Origin: Halobacterium sp. KA-4
Lineage (GTDB): Archaea > Halobacteriota > Halobacteria > Halobacteriales > Halobacteriaceae
DNA length: 64,000 nt
NCBI RefSeq assembly: GCF_021028995.1
Contig: NZ_JAJJZG010000004.1
Coordinates: 1-64,000 of the forward strand
Direction of reading: 5' to 3'
This document shows positions 5,470-13,828 of this stretch, one piece after another. Position 1 is the stretch's first letter; each line of letters begins with the position of its first letter. Position numbers and translations under genes: made by a program. The notes beneath the pieces were generated by a model. That model was not told the origin of the DNA, did no database searches, and saw only the letters and a program-made list of their open reading frames with translations.

Positions 5470-7242
5470 ATGGCACACAAGAAAGAAGAGTGGAAGGCCG
5501 AGCAGTACGGTGACGAAGTCAGAGCACAGCTCGAGGAGTTCGCCGAGCGCGGTTGGGAGGCAATTCCCGAGGAGGAACATGACCAGTGGTTCTCCCGGTT
5601 CAAGTTCTGGGGGGTATTCCACCAGCGCGGCGGCCAGGAGAGCTACTTCATGATGCGGTTGACCAACTGCGGCGGCGTCCTCGAACCCGACCAACTGCGG
5701 GCCATCGGCGAGGTCGCCCGCGACTACGCGCAGGGACCCACCGAGAACCCCGAGTTCGGGAACGGGTGGATCGACCTCACGACCCGCCAGTCCATCCAAC
5801 TGCACTGGCTCAAACTCGAAGATATCCCCGAAATCTGGGAGAAACTCGAAGCCGTCGGCGTCTCCTCGCGCTCAGCGGGCGGAGACACGATGCGCAACAT
5901 CTCCGGCTGTCCGGTCGCCGGAAAAGCCGACGAGTACGTCGAGAGCCGCGAACTCCTTGACGAGATTCAGGACGGCATCCGCGGGGACGACGACCTCGCG
6001 AACATGCCCCGCAAGTTCAACATCTCGGTGACTGGCTGCCGGCAGGGCTGCGCGCAGGACGCACTCAACGACATCGGCCTTGAACCCGCGCACAAATTCG
6101 TCGAGGGAGAAGAAGTCAAAGGCTTCAACGTCCGCGCCGGCGGCGGACTCGGCGGCCGCGAGCCCCGTGCGGCACGCCCGCTCGATATCTTCGTCACGCG
6201 CGACCAGGCCTACGACACCGTGCGCGCGTTCGTCGAACTGTACCACGAGGAAGGCAACCGCGAGAACCGCTCGAAGAACCGCGGGCGCTTCTTCGTCGAC
6301 GAGTGGGGCACCGACGAGATTCGGGACGCCCTCGATGAGCGCCTAGACTTCGACCTCGAATCCGCGGGCACAGACTTCCGCGGCGAGTACACGTACAACG
6401 CCGGCAAGCCGTCCGAGCGCGGCGCGCACGACCACGTCGGCGTCTACGACCAGGAGGACGGCCAGAACTACGTCGGCATCAGCGTCGCCCTCGGGCGGCT
6501 GCGTGCCGACGAAGCAATCGAACTCGCGGACCTCACCGACGAGTACGGCAGCGGGGAAGTCCGCTTGACGCGCCGGCAGAACCCCATCATCACGGACGTC
6601 GCGGACAAGGATCTCGACAACCTGCTTGCGGAGCCACTACTCGACAAACACAAGCCCGAGCCCAACCCCTTCGAGCAGGGCGCGATGGCCTGTACTGGCA
6701 CGGAGTTCTGCTCCCTTGCGCTCACGGAGACGAAGGCGCGGATGGCGCGGCTGTTGCGCTGGCTCGGGGACAACGTCGAAGTCCCCGACGATGTCGACCG
6801 CATTAAGATGCACTTCTCGGGCTGCACCGCGGACTGCGGGCAGGCGATGACCGCGGACATCGGCCTTCAGGGGATGCGCGCACGCAAGGACGGCGAGATG
6901 GTCGAAGCCGTCGACGTCGGCGTCGGCGGCGGCGTCGGCGAGGAGCCGACGTTCATCGACTGGGTGCGCCAGCGCGTCCCCGCCGACGAACTCCCGGGCA
7001 TGATTGCGAACCTCGTGCGGGCGTTCGCCGCGCTCCGCGAGGACGGACAGACGTTCCGCGAGTGGGTGGAGGCGACCGGCCACGAGACCATCGTCGAACT
7101 CGCAGAACCTGAGGAGGTCGAGGGGTACACGGATCCCTGTCTCTACGACGCCAAGCAGTCGTGGTACCCGTTCGCGGAGGGGGACAGTCCGGCGCCGACC
7201 GCCGCTGACGGCACGCCGCTGGCCACCGAAAGCGATGACTGA
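5470..7242 (+). CDS. nirA: Ferredoxin-dependent assimilatory nitrite reductase
   Basis: A 590-aa siroheme/[4Fe-4S] enzyme that reduces nitrite to ammonium with six electrons, probably from ferredoxin. It has the duplicated nitrite/sulfite reductase fold with two ferredoxin-like half domains. The four cluster and siroheme cysteines lie in CTGTEFC (about residue 409) and FSGCTADC (about 453). The N-terminal ISGCPVAG and SVTGCRQGC segments are typical of NirA. Sulfite reductase is the closest alternative, but the nitrate context argues for nitrite. It starts a new transcript after a 176-bp gap and overlaps the next 34-aa ORF (ATGACTGA). Confidence 0.92.
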   Translation: MAHKKEEWKAEQYGDEVRAQLEEFAERGWEAIPEEEHDQWFSRFKFWGVFHQRGGQESYFMMRLTNCGGVLEPDQLRAIGEVARDYAQGPTENPEFGNGWIDLTTRQSIQLHWLKLEDIPEIWEKLEAVGVSSRSAGGDTMRNISGCPVAGKADEYVESRELLDEIQDGIRGDDDLANMPRKFNISVTGCRQGCAQDALNDIGLEPAHKFVEGEEVKGFNVRAGGGLGGREPRAARPLDIFVTRDQAYDTVRAFVELYHEEGNRENRSKNRGRFFVDEWGTDEIRDALDERLDFDLESAGTDFRGEYTYNAGKPSERGAHDHVGVYDQEDGQNYVGISVALGRLRADEAIELADLTDEYGSGEVRLTRRQNPIITDVADKDLDNLLAEPLLDKHKPEPNPFEQGAMACTGTEFCSLALTETKARMARLLRWLGDNVEVPDDVDRIKMHFSGCTADCGQAMTADIGLQGMRARKDGEMVEAVDVGVGGGVGEEPTFIDWVRQRVPADELPGMIANLVRAFAALREDGQTFREWVEATGHETIVELAEPEEVEGYTDPCLYDAKQSWYPFAEGDSPAPTAADGTPLATESDD

Positions 7243-7339
7243 CGACGCGACGGTGTCGACGGCACCGATGGACGTCGCGCCCGAACTGTTCCCGACGAAC
7301 GCCGACCAGCCCGACCCCGCCGAGGTGGACGACGCGTGA
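7235..7339 (+). CDS. 34-aa acidic micro-protein between nirA and nasA
   Basis: This small frame starts at an ATG inside the nirA stop region (8-bp overlap). Its TGA overlaps the GTG start of nasA by four bases (GTGA). Overlap at both ends is the usual sign of translational coupling, so it is probably translated. The peptide is acidic and Pro/Asp-rich (PELFPTNADQPDPAEVDDA), with no cysteine, signal or membrane segment. It may only relay ribosomes from nirA to nasA, or it may be a small assembly factor. I recognise no family. Confidence 0.6.
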   Translation: MTDDATVSTAPMDVAPELFPTNADQPDPAEVDDA

Positions 7340-9429
7340 GTGAGCCCGTCCAAACCACGTGCATGCGGTGTGCGGTCGGCTGCGGCCACCTAACCGACCG
7401 CGTGGATGCCGGCTACGGCATCGGGACCGTGCGCGGCGACGTCACCCACCCCGTCAACCGCGGGCTGGCGTGCTCGCGCGGCGTCGAGGAAACGAAATCA
7501 CCCGATGGAACGTGGCTGACACGCCCGCTCGTGCGGATGGACGGCGACCTCCAGCCGACGACGTGGGACGTGGCGCTCTCCCGCATCGCCAACGAGTTCG
7601 GGGCCGCCCTCGACCGCGACCACAACAGCGTCGCCGTGCTCGGGAGCGGCCAGCAGACCAACGAGGCGGCGTACGCGCTCGGAAAACTCGCACGCGGCGG
7701 GTTCGGCACCCGCTACTACGACGCCAACACGACGCTCTGCATGGCGAGTGCGGTGACTGCCTACTACGACGCGTTCGGCAGCGACGCGCCGCCGTGCACG
7801 TACGACGACATCGAGGACGCGAAGACGCACGTCGTCTGGGGCGCGAACCCGGCGGTCGCCCACCCGGTGATGTTCCGCTGGATTTCCGAGAGCGCGACAG
7901 CCGACGACAGTGAACTCGTGGTTGTGGACCCGGTCGGCACGAAGACCGCCCAGGGGGCCGACGAACACGTCGCGCTCGAACCGGGGACGGACCTCGCGCT
8001 CGCACGGGCCGTGCTCGCTCGCGTCGTCGAACGCGGTGACGTCGACGAAGAGTTCGTCGAGGAAGCGACGACGGGCTTCAAGGAGCTACGCGGCGATCTC
8101 CCGGACCCGGAGGAGGCAGCGGCGACCGCCGATGTGGACGTGGAGACCGTCGACAAGCTCGCGGACGCCTTCCGGGAGCAGACGCTCGTCTACTGGGGGA
8201 TGGGCGTCAACCAGAGCACGCAGGGGACGGAGACGGCGGGCGCGCTCGTGGACCTCTGCCTCGCGACGGGGAACCTCGGCCCCGGAACCGGTCCGTTCTC
8301 GCTGACCGGGCAGGCGAACTCGATGGGCACGCGCGTGTGCTCCTCGAAGGGCTCGTGGCCGGGAATGCGGTCGTTCACGGACCCGGACGAGCGCCAGGTC
8401 GTCGCAGACGCGTGGAACGTCCCGGTCGAACGCCTCCCCGACGACCCCGGACCCGGGCCGGTCGGCCTCGTGAACGCCATCGATGACGGCCCGGTGGAGG
8501 CAGTCTGGACGGTCGCGACGAACCCCGCGGCGGGCCTGCCGGACGCCTCCGCCGCGCGCGAACACCTCGAAGACGCGTTCCTCGTCGCGCAGGACGCCTT
8601 CCACACGGAGACGACGGAACTCGCGGACGTCGTGTTGCCGGCGGCGACGTGGGGTGAGTCCTCGGGGACGGCGGTGAACATGGAGCGTCGCGTCTCCCGC
8701 ATCCGGCCGGCGTCGGACCTCGTGCCGGACGTGCGCACCGACCTCGACATCATCACGACCATCGGCGAGCTGCTCGTCCCCGGACTCCTCGGCGACCCCG
8801 ACCCCCGGGACGTCTTCGACGAACTCGCGGCGCTGACGGCGGGGACGCTAGCGGATCTCTCGGGCATCAGTTACGCGCGCCTCGACGACCAGCAAGCGGT
8901 CAGGTGGCCCGCGCCGGACGCAGTTTCGGAGGGCGGCTACCGCTACTACGACGACGGCGACTGGTCGTTCCCGACGCCCTCTGGGAAGGCCCGGTTCTCC
9001 ACGGGACGCCATGAGGGCCTCCCGGAGCCGACCAACGAGACGTACCCGTTGACGTTGACGACCGCTCGCGAGGCGGACGGTTACAACACGGGCGTGCGCT
9101 CCCGGGGCGAGGACGCGCCAGCGAATCCGCTCGCACGCATTAACCCTGAGACCGTCGAGGCTGCCGACATCGCGGCGGACGCCGACGTCGCGGTCGTCGA
9201 GTCCCGTCGCGCGAACGTCCCCGTGCGGGTGGAGGTGGACGACGCCGTACCGACGGGCCTCGTCTGGCTGCCGATTCACCACCCGGAGACGAACGCGCTG
9301 ACGCTCCCCGAGACCGACCCGCGCTCGGACGAGCCGAACTTCAAGCAGTGCGCGGTGCGCGTGCGGCCGGTCATCGACGAGGCGGCTGCGGGTACGCTCG
9401 GCGATGCGGAAGCGCCCGCCGACGACTGA
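7336..9429 (+). CDS. nasA: Assimilatory nitrate reductase catalytic subunit
   Basis: A 697-aa molybdopterin oxidoreductase reducing nitrate to nitrite in the cytoplasm. C9, C12, C16 and C46 ligate the N-terminal [4Fe-4S] cluster. NTTLCMAS supplies the probable Mo-ligand Cys of Nas/NarB-type enzymes. The molybdopterin dinucleotide-binding domain is at the C-terminus (from about residue 570: LTLTTAREADGYNTGVRS). There is no Tat signal, as expected for the assimilatory form. The GTG start overlaps the preceding micro-ORF. Formate dehydrogenase-like proteins share the fold, but gene order and lack of selenocysteine favour nitrate reductase. Confidence 0.9.
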   Translation: MSEPVQTTCMRCAVGCGHLTDRVDAGYGIGTVRGDVTHPVNRGLACSRGVEETKSPDGTWLTRPLVRMDGDLQPTTWDVALSRIANEFGAALDRDHNSVAVLGSGQQTNEAAYALGKLARGGFGTRYYDANTTLCMASAVTAYYDAFGSDAPPCTYDDIEDAKTHVVWGANPAVAHPVMFRWISESATADDSELVVVDPVGTKTAQGADEHVALEPGTDLALARAVLARVVERGDVDEEFVEEATTGFKELRGDLPDPEEAAATADVDVETVDKLADAFREQTLVYWGMGVNQSTQGTETAGALVDLCLATGNLGPGTGPFSLTGQANSMGTRVCSSKGSWPGMRSFTDPDERQVVADAWNVPVERLPDDPGPGPVGLVNAIDDGPVEAVWTVATNPAAGLPDASAAREHLEDAFLVAQDAFHTETTELADVVLPAATWGESSGTAVNMERRVSRIRPASDLVPDVRTDLDIITTIGELLVPGLLGDPDPRDVFDELAALTAGTLADLSGISYARLDDQQAVRWPAPDAVSEGGYRYYDDGDWSFPTPSGKARFSTGRHEGLPEPTNETYPLTLTTAREADGYNTGVRSRGEDAPANPLARINPETVEAADIAADADVAVVESRRANVPVRVEVDDAVPTGLVWLPIHHPETNALTLPETDPRSDEPNFKQCAVRVRPVIDEAAAGTLGDAEAPADD

Positions 9430-10198: not shown

Positions 10199-10348
10199 AT
10201 GTCGGGTGACGCGAACGACGGGAGCGCGCCGTGGCCCCAGCAACTGCTCGACAGCGAGTGGCTGCTGGCGGGCGCGGCCATCCTGTACTTCATGGTCTCG
10301 TACGTCCTGTGGGGTGTAATCGACATTTTCACGGTTCCCGCGGGGTGA
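10199..10348 (+). CDS. cbaD: Small single-TM oxidase subunit (CbaD-like)
   Basis: A 49-aa protein with one hydrophobic helix (residues about 21-43, LLAGAAILYFMVSYVLWGV) immediately before subunits II and I. A small one-helix protein at this position occurs in archaeal ba3-type oxidase operons, where it packs against the catalytic subunit. A longer frame extends upstream, but I chose the ATG at 10199. It gives a compact membrane protein ending four bases before the next gene. The assignment rests on position and topology, not on sequence motifs. Confidence 0.6.
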   Translation: MSGDANDGSAPWPQQLLDSEWLLAGAAILYFMVSYVLWGVIDIFTVPAG

Positions 10349-10352
10349 CACG

Positions 10353-11330
10353 ATGGGCGACGACGACCACTCCCCGCTGGAGTCGCCGGAGGGCCACTGG
10401 TGGAACCAGTCGGTCAACCGCCGGGAGTCAATCTGGCTGGGCATCTCGGGCGCGTGGGCAGTGTCGATGTTCGGCTGGATGCTCGGCTGGACGCAGGTCG
10501 GCGAACAGAACCAGACCGGCCAGACCTACGAGGTGAGCACGGAGCGCTACCGGCAGAAGGTCCAGTCGTTCAAGGAGGCGGCGGGCACGCTGGAAGTCGA
10601 CGGCGAGGAGGTGCTCGTGCCGGACGGCAACGACGTCTACGTCGGCGCGCTCCAGTGGGCGTGGGACGGCCTCCCGGTCGTCCTGCAGCCGGGCGAGACG
10701 TACAACTTCCACCTCGGCTCCTACGACGTCCAGCACGGCTTCGGCGTGCGCCCGGAGGGGAACCTCAGCAAGCAGATTTCGCTCCAGATTCTCCCGGGTT
10801 ACGAGTGGGTCGTGGAGATGTCCTTCGACGAGACGGGCACCTACCATGTCGTCTGCAACGAGTTCTGCGGCGTCGGCCACCGCTCGATGCACGGGACGTT
10901 CGTCGTGCAGGACCACGAGCCCGTCGAGACCGGCAGCGGGGGCAGCGAATCGTCCGACGCGGCCTACGGCAGCTGGTTCACGAGCGACGCGCGCGGCGGC
11001 GCGACAGATTTCGACGGCGAGCCGACGGACGCCACCGACCAGAGCGACGTGACCGTGGAGGTCGGTGCGGACGGCAACGGCGGCCCGTACGCGTTCGCGC
11101 CGACCGCCGTGCAGGTGTCGTCGGGGACGACGGTGACCTTCGAGTGGGTGTCGGACAACCACAACGTCCTCGTGGAGTCCCAGCCCGATGGCGCGGACTG
11201 GGAGGGCGTCGATGCCTTCGAGAATGAGGGGTACAGCCACTCGTTCACGTTCGACGCGCAGGGCGTCTACGAGTACTACTGCGAGCCCCACCTCGGCATG
11301 GGAATGAAGGGCGTTGTGGAGGTGGTCTGA
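10353..11330 (+). CDS. cbaB: Heme-copper oxidase subunit II fused to a halocyanin domain
   Basis: A 325-aa protein with two copper domains. After one membrane anchor (about 27-48), residues 85-190 form the CuA domain with H128, C168, E170, C172, H176 and M179 all present. An acidic linker (about 195-230) leads to a complete type-I copper (halocyanin/plastocyanin) domain, residues 232-325. It has H270, C310, H313 and M316 or M318. Electrons could therefore pass from the tethered blue-copper domain to CuA and then to subunit I without a separate carrier. It lies four bases after cbaD and one base before the cbaA start. The fusion looks genuine: there is one frame and no break. Confidence 0.88.
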   Translation: MGDDDHSPLESPEGHWWNQSVNRRESIWLGISGAWAVSMFGWMLGWTQVGEQNQTGQTYEVSTERYRQKVQSFKEAAGTLEVDGEEVLVPDGNDVYVGALQWAWDGLPVVLQPGETYNFHLGSYDVQHGFGVRPEGNLSKQISLQILPGYEWVVEMSFDETGTYHVVCNEFCGVGHRSMHGTFVVQDHEPVETGSGGSESSDAAYGSWFTSDARGGATDFDGEPTDATDQSDVTVEVGADGNGGPYAFAPTAVQVSSGTTVTFEWVSDNHNVLVESQPDGADWEGVDAFENEGYSHSFTFDAQGVYEYYCEPHLGMGMKGVVEVV

Positions 11331-11331
11331 G

Positions 11332-13041
11332 ATGTTCGGCCTGAGCACGTTCGACTACGACGAGGACGGCTTCCGGGAGTGCGACGTTACGGGCCTGACG
11401 GTCCACAAGTCGGCCGAAGACCTCGTGAAACTGTTCGGCGTGACCGCCATCGTCTCACTTGCGGTTGGCGGCGCGTTCGCGCTCACGGTCGCACTGACGC
11501 GCTGGGAGGCCATCGGCTTCCTCGACCCCGGGCAGTACTACCGGTTCACGAGCCTGCACGCGTGGTTCATGATTCTATTCTGGATGGTGTTCATGGAAAT
11601 CGCCATCCTCTACGTCGGCGGGCCGTTCGTCCTCGGCCGCAAACTCTCCCTCTCACGACTCGGTTGGGCGGGCTACGGCATCATGCTGGCCGGCGGCGCG
11701 CTTGCCGTCTTCAGCATCGCGACCTACGACCTCCCGAACCAGGCGCCATTCTACACGTCGTACGTCCCGCTACCGTCGCCAGCGCCGTACTTCGCGGGCG
11801 CCGTGCTCTTCCTCTTGGGCGCGCTCGTCGCCGCCGTCCCGTTCTTTGTGACACTGTGGCACGAGAAGCGCGAACACCCCAGCAAAACGCTACCGCTCAT
11901 CACGTTCGGCGCGTTCATCACGGGCGTCATCGCGCTGGAGGCGCTCGTCGGCGGTATCACCGCACTCACGCCCGCGTTCCTCTGGCGCATCGGGTTCCTC
12001 GAACACCTCGACGCGGCGTGGTACCGCCAGATGTTCTGGACCATCGGCCACGGCAGCCAGCAAATCAACCTGCTGGCGATGATCACGGTCTGGTACTTCA
12101 TGACCCACGTCATCGGCGGCGCCGAAGTCGCCTCCGAGAAGATTTCCCGCGTCGCTTTCGTGCTCTATCTCTTCTTCATCAACCTCGGCGCCGCCCACCA
12201 CCTGATGTCCGACCCCGCGCTCTCCTCGTCGTGGCGCATGTGGAACACCTCCTACGCCGCCTACGGCGCGGTCGTCGCATCGATGATTCACGCATTCGCC
12301 ATCCCTGCTGGCCTGGAAGCCGGCCGCCGGCGGAAGGGTGCGGGCGGCGGGCTGTTCGGCTGGCTGTGGTCCGCACCGTGGAAGGACCCCGGGTTCTCCT
12401 CAACGATTCTCTCCATCATCCTCTTCGGCTTCCTCGGCGGCATCACCGGCGTCATGATGGGGCAGATGCAACTCAACATGAGCTGGCATAACAACCTCGC
12501 CGTCCCCGGCCACTTCCACGCCACCGTCGTCACCGGCACCACGCTGGCGTTCATGGGACTGGCGTACTACGTGCTCCGGCTGGTCTTCGGCCGCGACTGG
12601 TTCGCCAGCCGGCTCGCCTCGATTCAGCCGTTCTTCTACGGCGGCGCGATGGCCGTCGTCTGCCTGATGATGATGTACCTCGGCCTGCTGTTCGGTGTGC
12701 CACGCCGCCACCCCTCCGTGATGGACATTCCCGGGACGGCGTTCGACTTCTCGCCGTCGGAGCCGTTCTTCGTGGTGTTCGGCATCGCGGCCATTCTCTC
12801 CGTCGTCGGCGGCGCGCTGTTCGTCGTCATCGCCGTCGGCACGCTCCTCGCTGGCGGCACGTTCACACCCCCAATTGTCGAGGACCGTGCCATATCGCCG
12901 GTCAGCGGGGACGCCGCGCCGCCACACGAGCAGAGCATGCGTGGGACGTTCGTGCTCGTGCTCGTGTTCTTCGCGGTGTTCGTGGTGCTGTACGCGTTGA
13001 ATTGGTTCCTGCTCTCGCAGGTCTGGGAAATCGGCCCCTGA
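11332..13041 (+). CDS. cbaA: B-family (ba3-like) heme-copper oxidoreductase subunit I with Tyr-to-Gln active site
   Basis: A 569-aa membrane protein with about 13 helices, colinear with ba3-type oxygen reductases. H76 and H396 should ligate the low-spin heme. H394 should ligate the high-spin heme, and H240, H289 and H290 the second active-site metal. The position four residues after H240, where Thermus ba3 has the His-cross-linked Tyr (GHPIVY), is Gln here (GHGSQQ, Q244). Without that Tyr normal O2 chemistry is unlikely. Gln at this site points to one of the nitric-oxide-reducing offshoots of B-family enzymes, though that is inference. I used the ATG at 11332, directly after the cbaB stop, not the ATG 18 bases upstream inside cbaB. 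Confidence 0.85.
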   Translation: MFGLSTFDYDEDGFRECDVTGLTVHKSAEDLVKLFGVTAIVSLAVGGAFALTVALTRWEAIGFLDPGQYYRFTSLHAWFMILFWMVFMEIAILYVGGPFVLGRKLSLSRLGWAGYGIMLAGGALAVFSIATYDLPNQAPFYTSYVPLPSPAPYFAGAVLFLLGALVAAVPFFVTLWHEKREHPSKTLPLITFGAFITGVIALEALVGGITALTPAFLWRIGFLEHLDAAWYRQMFWTIGHGSQQINLLAMITVWYFMTHVIGGAEVASEKISRVAFVLYLFFINLGAAHHLMSDPALSSSWRMWNTSYAAYGAVVASMIHAFAIPAGLEAGRRRKGAGGGLFGWLWSAPWKDPGFSSTILSIILFGFLGGITGVMMGQMQLNMSWHNNLAVPGHFHATVVTGTTLAFMGLAYYVLRLVFGRDWFASRLASIQPFFYGGAMAVVCLMMMYLGLLFGVPRRHPSVMDIPGTAFDFSPSEPFFVVFGIAAILSVVGGALFVVIAVGTLLAGGTFTPPIVEDRAISPVSGDAAPPHEQSMRGTFVLVLVFFAVFVVLYALNWFLLSQVWEIGP

Positions 13042-13111: not shown

Positions 13112-13828
13112 GTGGCTAATCCGACCGAAACGTCGCCGTCCGCGCTCGCCGGCGTCACCAGTGCCGTCCGCAACGGCTGGCGGACCGCGAAAACAGTCTA
13201 CTACGCGAATTCGGTGAGTTGGCGGGTGCTGAAGAGCGGCGCGCTCCTCTTCCTCGGTTGCTTCCTCTGGGCGGGGTCGAACGTCCTCCAGTCGTACGTC
13301 GGCTGGCGCGTGCTCGACTACACGATGGCGTACGGGTTCGTCGTGCTGCTCTACGGGCCGGTCCACCACCTCGTCGTGATTCCGCTGGCGTTGCGGTGGA
13401 GGCGGTCGTCGGGGCTGCGCCAGCGTTTCGGGAAGCGTTTGCCGACGGCGATGCTGGCGGTGTTCCTCGCGGTCGTCCTGATTGCGGGGGCGTTCCCGGC
13501 GGGTGCAATGACCGTGGACTTCGGGTCGGCAATCGGAACCTCAGACAGCGCGACTGCTGCCCAGCCGGAGTTGGCGTGTACGACCGAGTCCGGCGGCGAA
13601 ACTATTGTCTGCGAGGTCACGAACGCCGGGCGCGTGGACCGCGTGGTCGTCACGAGCGCGGGCGAGCAGTTGCTCGCGGTCGACGACCCGCCCTACGACT
13701 TCACCGTCGAGGCGGCGAACGTCCAATCGACGATGGATCGCGAGCAGTTCCGCGTCGTCCTCTACGACGAGAACGGGAACCTCGTGCGACAGTACACGCG
13801 CCGGCTATCAACCATCGGGCTGAACTAG
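13112..13828 (+). CDS. Conserved membrane protein downstream of the oxidase
   Basis: A 238-aa protein of unknown function. About three hydrophobic helices lie at residues 42-62, 70-92 and 110-135. They are followed by an extracytoplasmic beta-rich domain (about 150-230) with two cysteines (LACTTESGGETIVCEVTN) that could form a disulfide. It follows cbaA by 70 bp with its own ribosome-binding site, so it may be part of the oxidase transcript. It could be an assembly or anchoring factor. It has no copper- or heme-binding motif of known accessory factors. Its end overlaps the convergent exporter gene by four bases. Confidence 0.7.
   Translation: MANPTETSPSALAGVTSAVRNGWRTAKTVYYANSVSWRVLKSGALLFLGCFLWAGSNVLQSYVGWRVLDYTMAYGFVVLLYGPVHHLVVIPLALRWRRSSGLRQRFGKRLPTAMLAVFLAVVLIAGAFPAGAMTVDFGSAIGTSDSATAAQPELACTTESGGETIVCEVTNAGRVDRVVVTSAGEQLLAVDDPPYDFTVEAANVQSTMDREQFRVVLYDENGNLVRQYTRRLSTIGLN

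Follow-up and report, generated by a model that had tools for sequence, protein, structure and literature searches.

Gene content of the locus

The genes described here lie in the window (the whole 64,000-nucleotide stretch of DNA that was analysed) and are listed in Table 1. Three of them make up the enzyme: a gene for a one-helix protein of 49 residues, followed by the genes for subunit II and subunit I. A fourth conserved gene is found downstream. The reading frame of subunit I is uninterrupted and its product is a 569-residue COX1-family protein (191 bits to PF00115 in a profile search). Among solved structures, profile searching ranked B-type oxidases first (E ~1e-62 to Thermus ba3), and no chain labelled NO reductase was found among the solved relatives. 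The AlphaFold2 model of subunit I has a mean pLDDT of 84.7, and its top solved match by E-value is Thermus ba3 (TM 0.76). Subunit I groups with the eNOR family of NO reductases (see below), and related loci are called eNOR loci here.

Table 1. Positions in the window of the enzyme genes, their diagnostic sites and the neighbouring genes.
Feature	Position	Strand	Evidence
NirA-like ferredoxin-nitrite reductase (neighbour, outside the enzyme)	5470..7242	+	best NCBIfam match NF007125, 427 bits, below cut-off 594
Assimilatory nitrate reductase NasA (neighbour, outside the enzyme)	7336..9429	+	NF041323, 1206 bits, cut-off 1000
Small one-helix subunit, 49 aa, putative counterpart of subunit IIa/CbaD of B-type oxidases	10199..10348	+	orthologs
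Predicted eNOR subunit II, 325 aa: one membrane helix, CuA cupredoxin, C-terminal halocyanin	10353..11330	+	profiles, alignment, ligands
Fused halocyanin (type 1 blue copper) domain of subunit II	10998..11327	+	TIGR03102
Predicted eNOR subunit I, heme-copper catalytic subunit, 569 aa	11332..13041	+	PF00115, His ligands, eNOR clade, AlphaFold2
Codons of H240-G-S-Q243-Q244 (CuB ligand, then the diagnostic Gln-Gln)	12049..12063	+	sequence and alignment
Conserved membrane protein, 238 aa, fourth gene of haloarchaeal eNOR loci	13112..13828	+	orthologs; no confident family

Subunit II matches the CoxB and NosZ CuA models in profile searches. Alignment with standalone subunits II indicated a complete set of CuA ligands (H128, C168, C172, H176 and M179). 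Its C-terminal halocyanin domain scores 97.4 bits to TIGR03102, above the cut-off of 93.8, and the type 1 copper ligands are complete as well (H270, C310, H313 and M318). This CuA-halocyanin fusion is found in 10 of 30 haloarchaeal eNOR loci; in the other 20 only the CuA part of about 180 to 190 residues matches. The fusion requires three changes on the tree (see below) and so was gained or lost more than once. In the fusion published for haloarchaeal B-type oxidases, the partner of halocyanin is the small subunit IIa and not the CuA subunit (PMC3128077). In a literature search that covered few subscription papers, we found no report of a CuA-halocyanin fusion. The fused domain allows a concrete, testable statement on the electron donor of an archaeal eNOR.

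In each of the 14 other mapped haloarchaeal loci, subunit II is preceded by an ortholog of the small subunit; the same holds for Thermus, Thermomicrobium and Defluviimonas. By analogy, the 49-aa protein is a putative counterpart of subunit IIa and may share its role (PMC3128077). The fourth gene is equally constant: its ortholog adjoins subunit I, or lies one gene off, in 14/14 other haloarchaeal loci mapped and in Natronomonas pharaonis. Its best Pfam match, DUF5793, is below threshold. About three helices are predicted, together with a soluble-looking C-terminal part, and the protein is a constant neighbour across the loci L129-L142, L145 and L147-L149.

Two further neighbours were seen in related loci. 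Most of the mapped haloarchaeal eNOR loci have a heme O synthase-like gene next to them, and one is found in 58 of 80 bacterial loci (L047-L126), which suggests a farnesylated heme in bacterial eNOR; a check of 15 kb of the window detected none. A cytochrome b/iron-sulfur protein, seen originally beside the eNOR of Defluviimonas (L038:12414-13994), has matches in 64 of the 80 bacterial loci (L047-L126). It could be an electron donor of bacterial eNOR.

Active site and family placement of subunit I

The six metal-ligand His residues that the original prediction had listed (H76, H240, H289, H290, H394 and H396) were all located by alignment. We take H76 and H396 to bind the low-spin heme, H394 the high-spin heme, and H240, H289 and H290 CuB. 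The active-site stretch reads WTIGH240-G-S-Q243-Q244-I-N. Gln244 aligns with the Tyr of GHPxVYF in every ba3-type sequence compared, so the reported replacement of the cross-linked Tyr by Gln holds. The motif GHGSQQ is also present in two same-genus copies of subunit I (95% and 91% identical), and thus Gln244 is not a sequencing error.

In all 114 aligned homologs, Gln is found at both 243 and 244, versus V-Y in four Tyr-type outgroups. Eight residues are invariant in the 114 homologs and absent from the four ba3-type outgroups: E89, Q243, Q244, N246, Y279, N305, Y308 and H320. The bacterial homologs were fetched by two peptide patterns, one spanning the E89 stretch and the other the QQ stretch, and bacterial invariance at these two stretches is therefore partly due to selection. 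The haloarchaeal homologs were fetched by whole-protein similarity and are unbiased for QQ; the invariance of Y279, N305, Y308 and H320 is free of pattern selection. Position 320, which corresponds to T312 of Thermus ba3, is occupied by Thr in the outgroups and always by His in the 114 homologs. The K-channel positions Y255 and S317 are conserved. An invariant His320 beside them suggests a modified K-type proton path in subunit I (Y255, S317 and H320).

One ligand varies elsewhere in the family. At the position of the low-spin heme ligand His396 (GHFH), the four Thermus eNORs (L036, L039, L047 and L048) all have Lys (GHFK), as does a Chitinophagaceae sequence (L078, Bacteroidota). If active, the GHFK enzymes would have an unusual His/Lys-ligated heme.

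The Gln-for-Tyr exchange is not new. It is the published hallmark that defines eNOR, the family of Hemp & Gennis 2008, which has already been reported in Natronomonas and other Halobacteria (PMC8756737). The present analysis adds how widespread eNOR is in haloarchaea and how tightly it is linked to NirK, as well as the fusion with halocyanin and the constancy of the fourth gene.

Family membership was examined in a maximum-likelihood tree of eNOR and ba3 members (47 rows). Subunit I of the window, the bacterial eNORs and the N. pharaonis enzyme form one clade with support of 100/99. The ba3 enzymes, including that of N. pharaonis, are on a separate branch (98/89). When qNOR served as outgroup, the tree contained a very long branch, and it was rebuilt without qNOR and without the long-branched Thermomicrobium row; the placement of subunit I was unchanged. 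Subunit I shares 59% identity with the Gln enzyme of N. pharaonis and 28% with the Tyr-bearing ba3 oxidase of the same organism. The genome used for these comparisons (G099) is that of N. pharaonis DSM 2160, since it contains the first 5000 bases of plasmid PL131 at 100% identity. Membership among the ba3 oxygen reductases was rejected: the fourth residue past the first CuB His is Gln244, not Tyr.

eNOR is counted among the biochemically characterised NO reductases, with reference to Murali et al. 2024 (PMC11388526), and we infer NO reduction for the window protein from this family literature. The bacterial comparison consisted of the best 80 matches listed. The characterised eNOR is reportedly that of Rhodothermus marinus; its sequence was not among these matches, and the tie to measured activity therefore runs through the family definition of the literature. 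To our knowledge, no activity is known for any haloarchaeal member.

NirK and the source of NO

The nitrate and nitrite reductases next to the operon had been proposed as a natural source of NO. This part of the original prediction was not borne out: both score as assimilatory enzymes (NasA and NirA-like), which yield ammonium and not NO, and the proposed local source is therefore absent. Of the 14 other mapped haloarchaeal loci, a single one, in a genome of the same genus (G067), has the NasA/NirA pair beside the eNOR operon.

A link to NO was found at the genome level. eNOR is present in 43 of 242 sampled Halobacteria genomes at 59 to 100% identity, with a clear gap below these sequences down to about 30% for ba3 enzymes. 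NirK is encoded in 42 of the 43 eNOR genomes versus 85 of the 199 genomes without eNOR (Fisher p = 1e-12). When labels were shuffled within genera, a test that covers all but a few of the sampled genomes, 23.5 genomes with both genes were expected and 34 were observed, a number reached in 0 of 100,000 shuffles. One genus is split completely (NirK in 9/9 genomes with eNOR vs 0/6 without). NirK lies within 11 kb of the eNOR gene in at least 17 of the 43 genomes; the eNOR copy of the window itself is not near NirK. Next to the eNOR operon of Thermus are genes for an Rrf2 regulator, a ScdA_N/DUF542 protein and a NirK-like multicopper oxidase, the last scoring 155 bits and thus under the cut-off of TIGR02376. 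Several haloarchaeal NirK matches to TIGR02376 (G154, G084, G102 and others) contain one TGA in the matched stretch, near the end of the profile (position 325), which is probably the stop codon of the gene itself.

The genome of the window (G000) carries two NirK genes on other contigs (C51 and C8) and one qNOR with the NorZ-type N-terminal domain PF22085 on C51 (L004). eNOR may thus be redundant in this strain or have another role. A NosZ-like protein scores below the cut-off of that model. The bacterial narG model detected no dissimilatory nitrate reductase in this genome, a result from a bacterial model that says little on the haloarchaeal type of enzyme. Near the second NirK (C8:20779-21693), at about 26.2 kb of C8, a 192-aa fragment of an aa3-type subunit I (L005) runs into what looks like a gene for a TnpB/OrfB-type transposon protein, as if the oxidase gene had been cut by a mobile element.

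Thirty genomes with NirK have no detected qNOR domain (PF22085). Twelve of these carry eNOR, and in those 12 it is the only NO reductase found. According to two papers on haloarchaeal denitrification, haloarchaea have no NO reductase other than qNOR/NorZ (PMC8400030 and PMC8301774; the survey among these searched by gene and protein names). The 43 of 242 genomes with eNOR, 42 of them with NirK, run against these statements. Because annotation usually names eNOR genes as cytochrome oxidase, the N2O potential of saline systems may be undercounted.

Interpretation and comparison with known systems

Taken together, the tree, the Gln hallmark and the NirK association give good support to the assignment as an NO reductase of the eNOR type, as opposed to an oxygen reductase. 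We put the probability that the operon encodes such an enzyme at roughly 85%.

It is improbable that the operon encodes an oxygen reductase of the B family that functions with Gln, or one in which another helix supplies the Tyr, as happens in cbb3, even though the fold and the subunits are of the B family, with the Thermus ba3 match given above, a CuA domain and a small IIa-like subunit. An invariant Tyr (Y279) does occur on the helix that carries H289/H290. In cbb3 enzymes the Tyr is on helix VII and precedes the CuB His pair by six residues. That site is occupied here by Ile or Leu (I283; L or I in 114 of 114 homologs) and Y279 is one helical turn further, so that by sequence register a Tyr from another helix appears unable to fill the space of Gln244, and this candidate was rejected. 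Subunit I lies outside the Tyr-bearing ba3 clade, that of N. pharaonis included, and the genome already has two aa3-type oxidases (L001 and L002). The presence of eNOR tracks NirK, which counts against an oxygen reductase. Co-occurrence with NirK would also fit an NO-resistant oxygen reductase.

Assignment to another alternative NO reductase family (sNOR, gNOR, bNOR, nNOR, cNOR or qNOR) seems very improbable. Each of these families consists of heme-copper NO reductases whose active site is altered, and nNOR has been named as an NO reductase family (PMC11388526, PMC12569097). The residue at the Tyr position is, however, N in sNOR and CuANOR, D in gNOR and E in cNOR and qNOR, compared to Q in the window (PMC8756737). 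Furthermore, PF22085 is absent from the window protein and sits in the separate qNOR on C51.

Dual function would extend the assignment as an NO reductase and does not exclude it. Such an enzyme would take NO and, at low oxygen, also O2, supporting NO-tolerant microaerobic respiration with energy conserved via one proton channel. One predicted proton channel is listed for the eNOR family (PMC8756737, Table A4), and NO reduction by eNOR has been stated to take place when conditions are microoxic (PMC11388526). The invariant K-channel-like set described above, with His320 in place of Thr, is consistent with such a channel. Against O2 turnover, four-electron cleavage of O2 would lose its usual donor when the Tyr is missing. 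We regard dual function as a tentative extension, rather doubtful at present.

For the eNOR-type NO reductase, the following scheme can be proposed. Electrons would arrive at the blue-copper site of the fused halocyanin and pass to CuA of subunit II, from there to the low-spin heme (H76/H396) and on to the high-spin heme/CuB site of subunit I (H394; H240, H289 and H290), where two NO would be converted to N2O. Gln244 could replace the Tyr because NO reduction needs no tyrosyl radical. Protons probably enter through the modified K-type channel. The enzyme would remove or respire NO produced by NirK encoded elsewhere in the genome, alongside qNOR. We lean towards a broader view in which the halocyanin-CuA fusion forms, in one haloarchaeal group, a halocyanin-CuA-heme wire analogous to caa3 with its fused cytochrome c, and in which eNOR is the sole respiratory NO reductase in at least a dozen NirK-bearing species, in contradiction to the qNOR-only view.

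The closest known system is the eNOR of N. pharaonis. It has the GH-x-x-QQ-I-N motif, the gene order small subunit-II-I and the same fourth gene downstream. It differs from the window in that its subunit II matches the CuA part only, a fused halocyanin was not found, and upstream there is a heme O synthase-like gene. The bacterial eNORs (Thermus, Thermomicrobium and Defluviimonas) show 40 to 45% identity to subunit I and share the signature residues and the small-II-I order. They differ in that subunit II is about 175 to 184 aa and carries CuA only (three annotated loci), in that the 80 bacterial loci yielded no homolog of the fourth gene (238 aa), and, for Thermus, in the Lys at His396.

The ba3 oxygen reductases (Thermus thermophilus, and N. 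pharaonis CbaA, whose enzyme is described as biochemically characterised; PMC3128077) resemble the window enzyme in the B-family fold, the six His ligands, the CuA subunit II and the one-helix small subunit, but have Tyr at the Gln244 position, share only about 28% identity and form a separate clade. qNOR/NorZ is predicted to catalyse the same reaction as eNOR and also occurs in NirK-bearing haloarchaea, including the strain of the window. It is a quinol-dependent single chain of the C-family branch with Glu at the site, whereas eNOR would receive its electrons via CuA.
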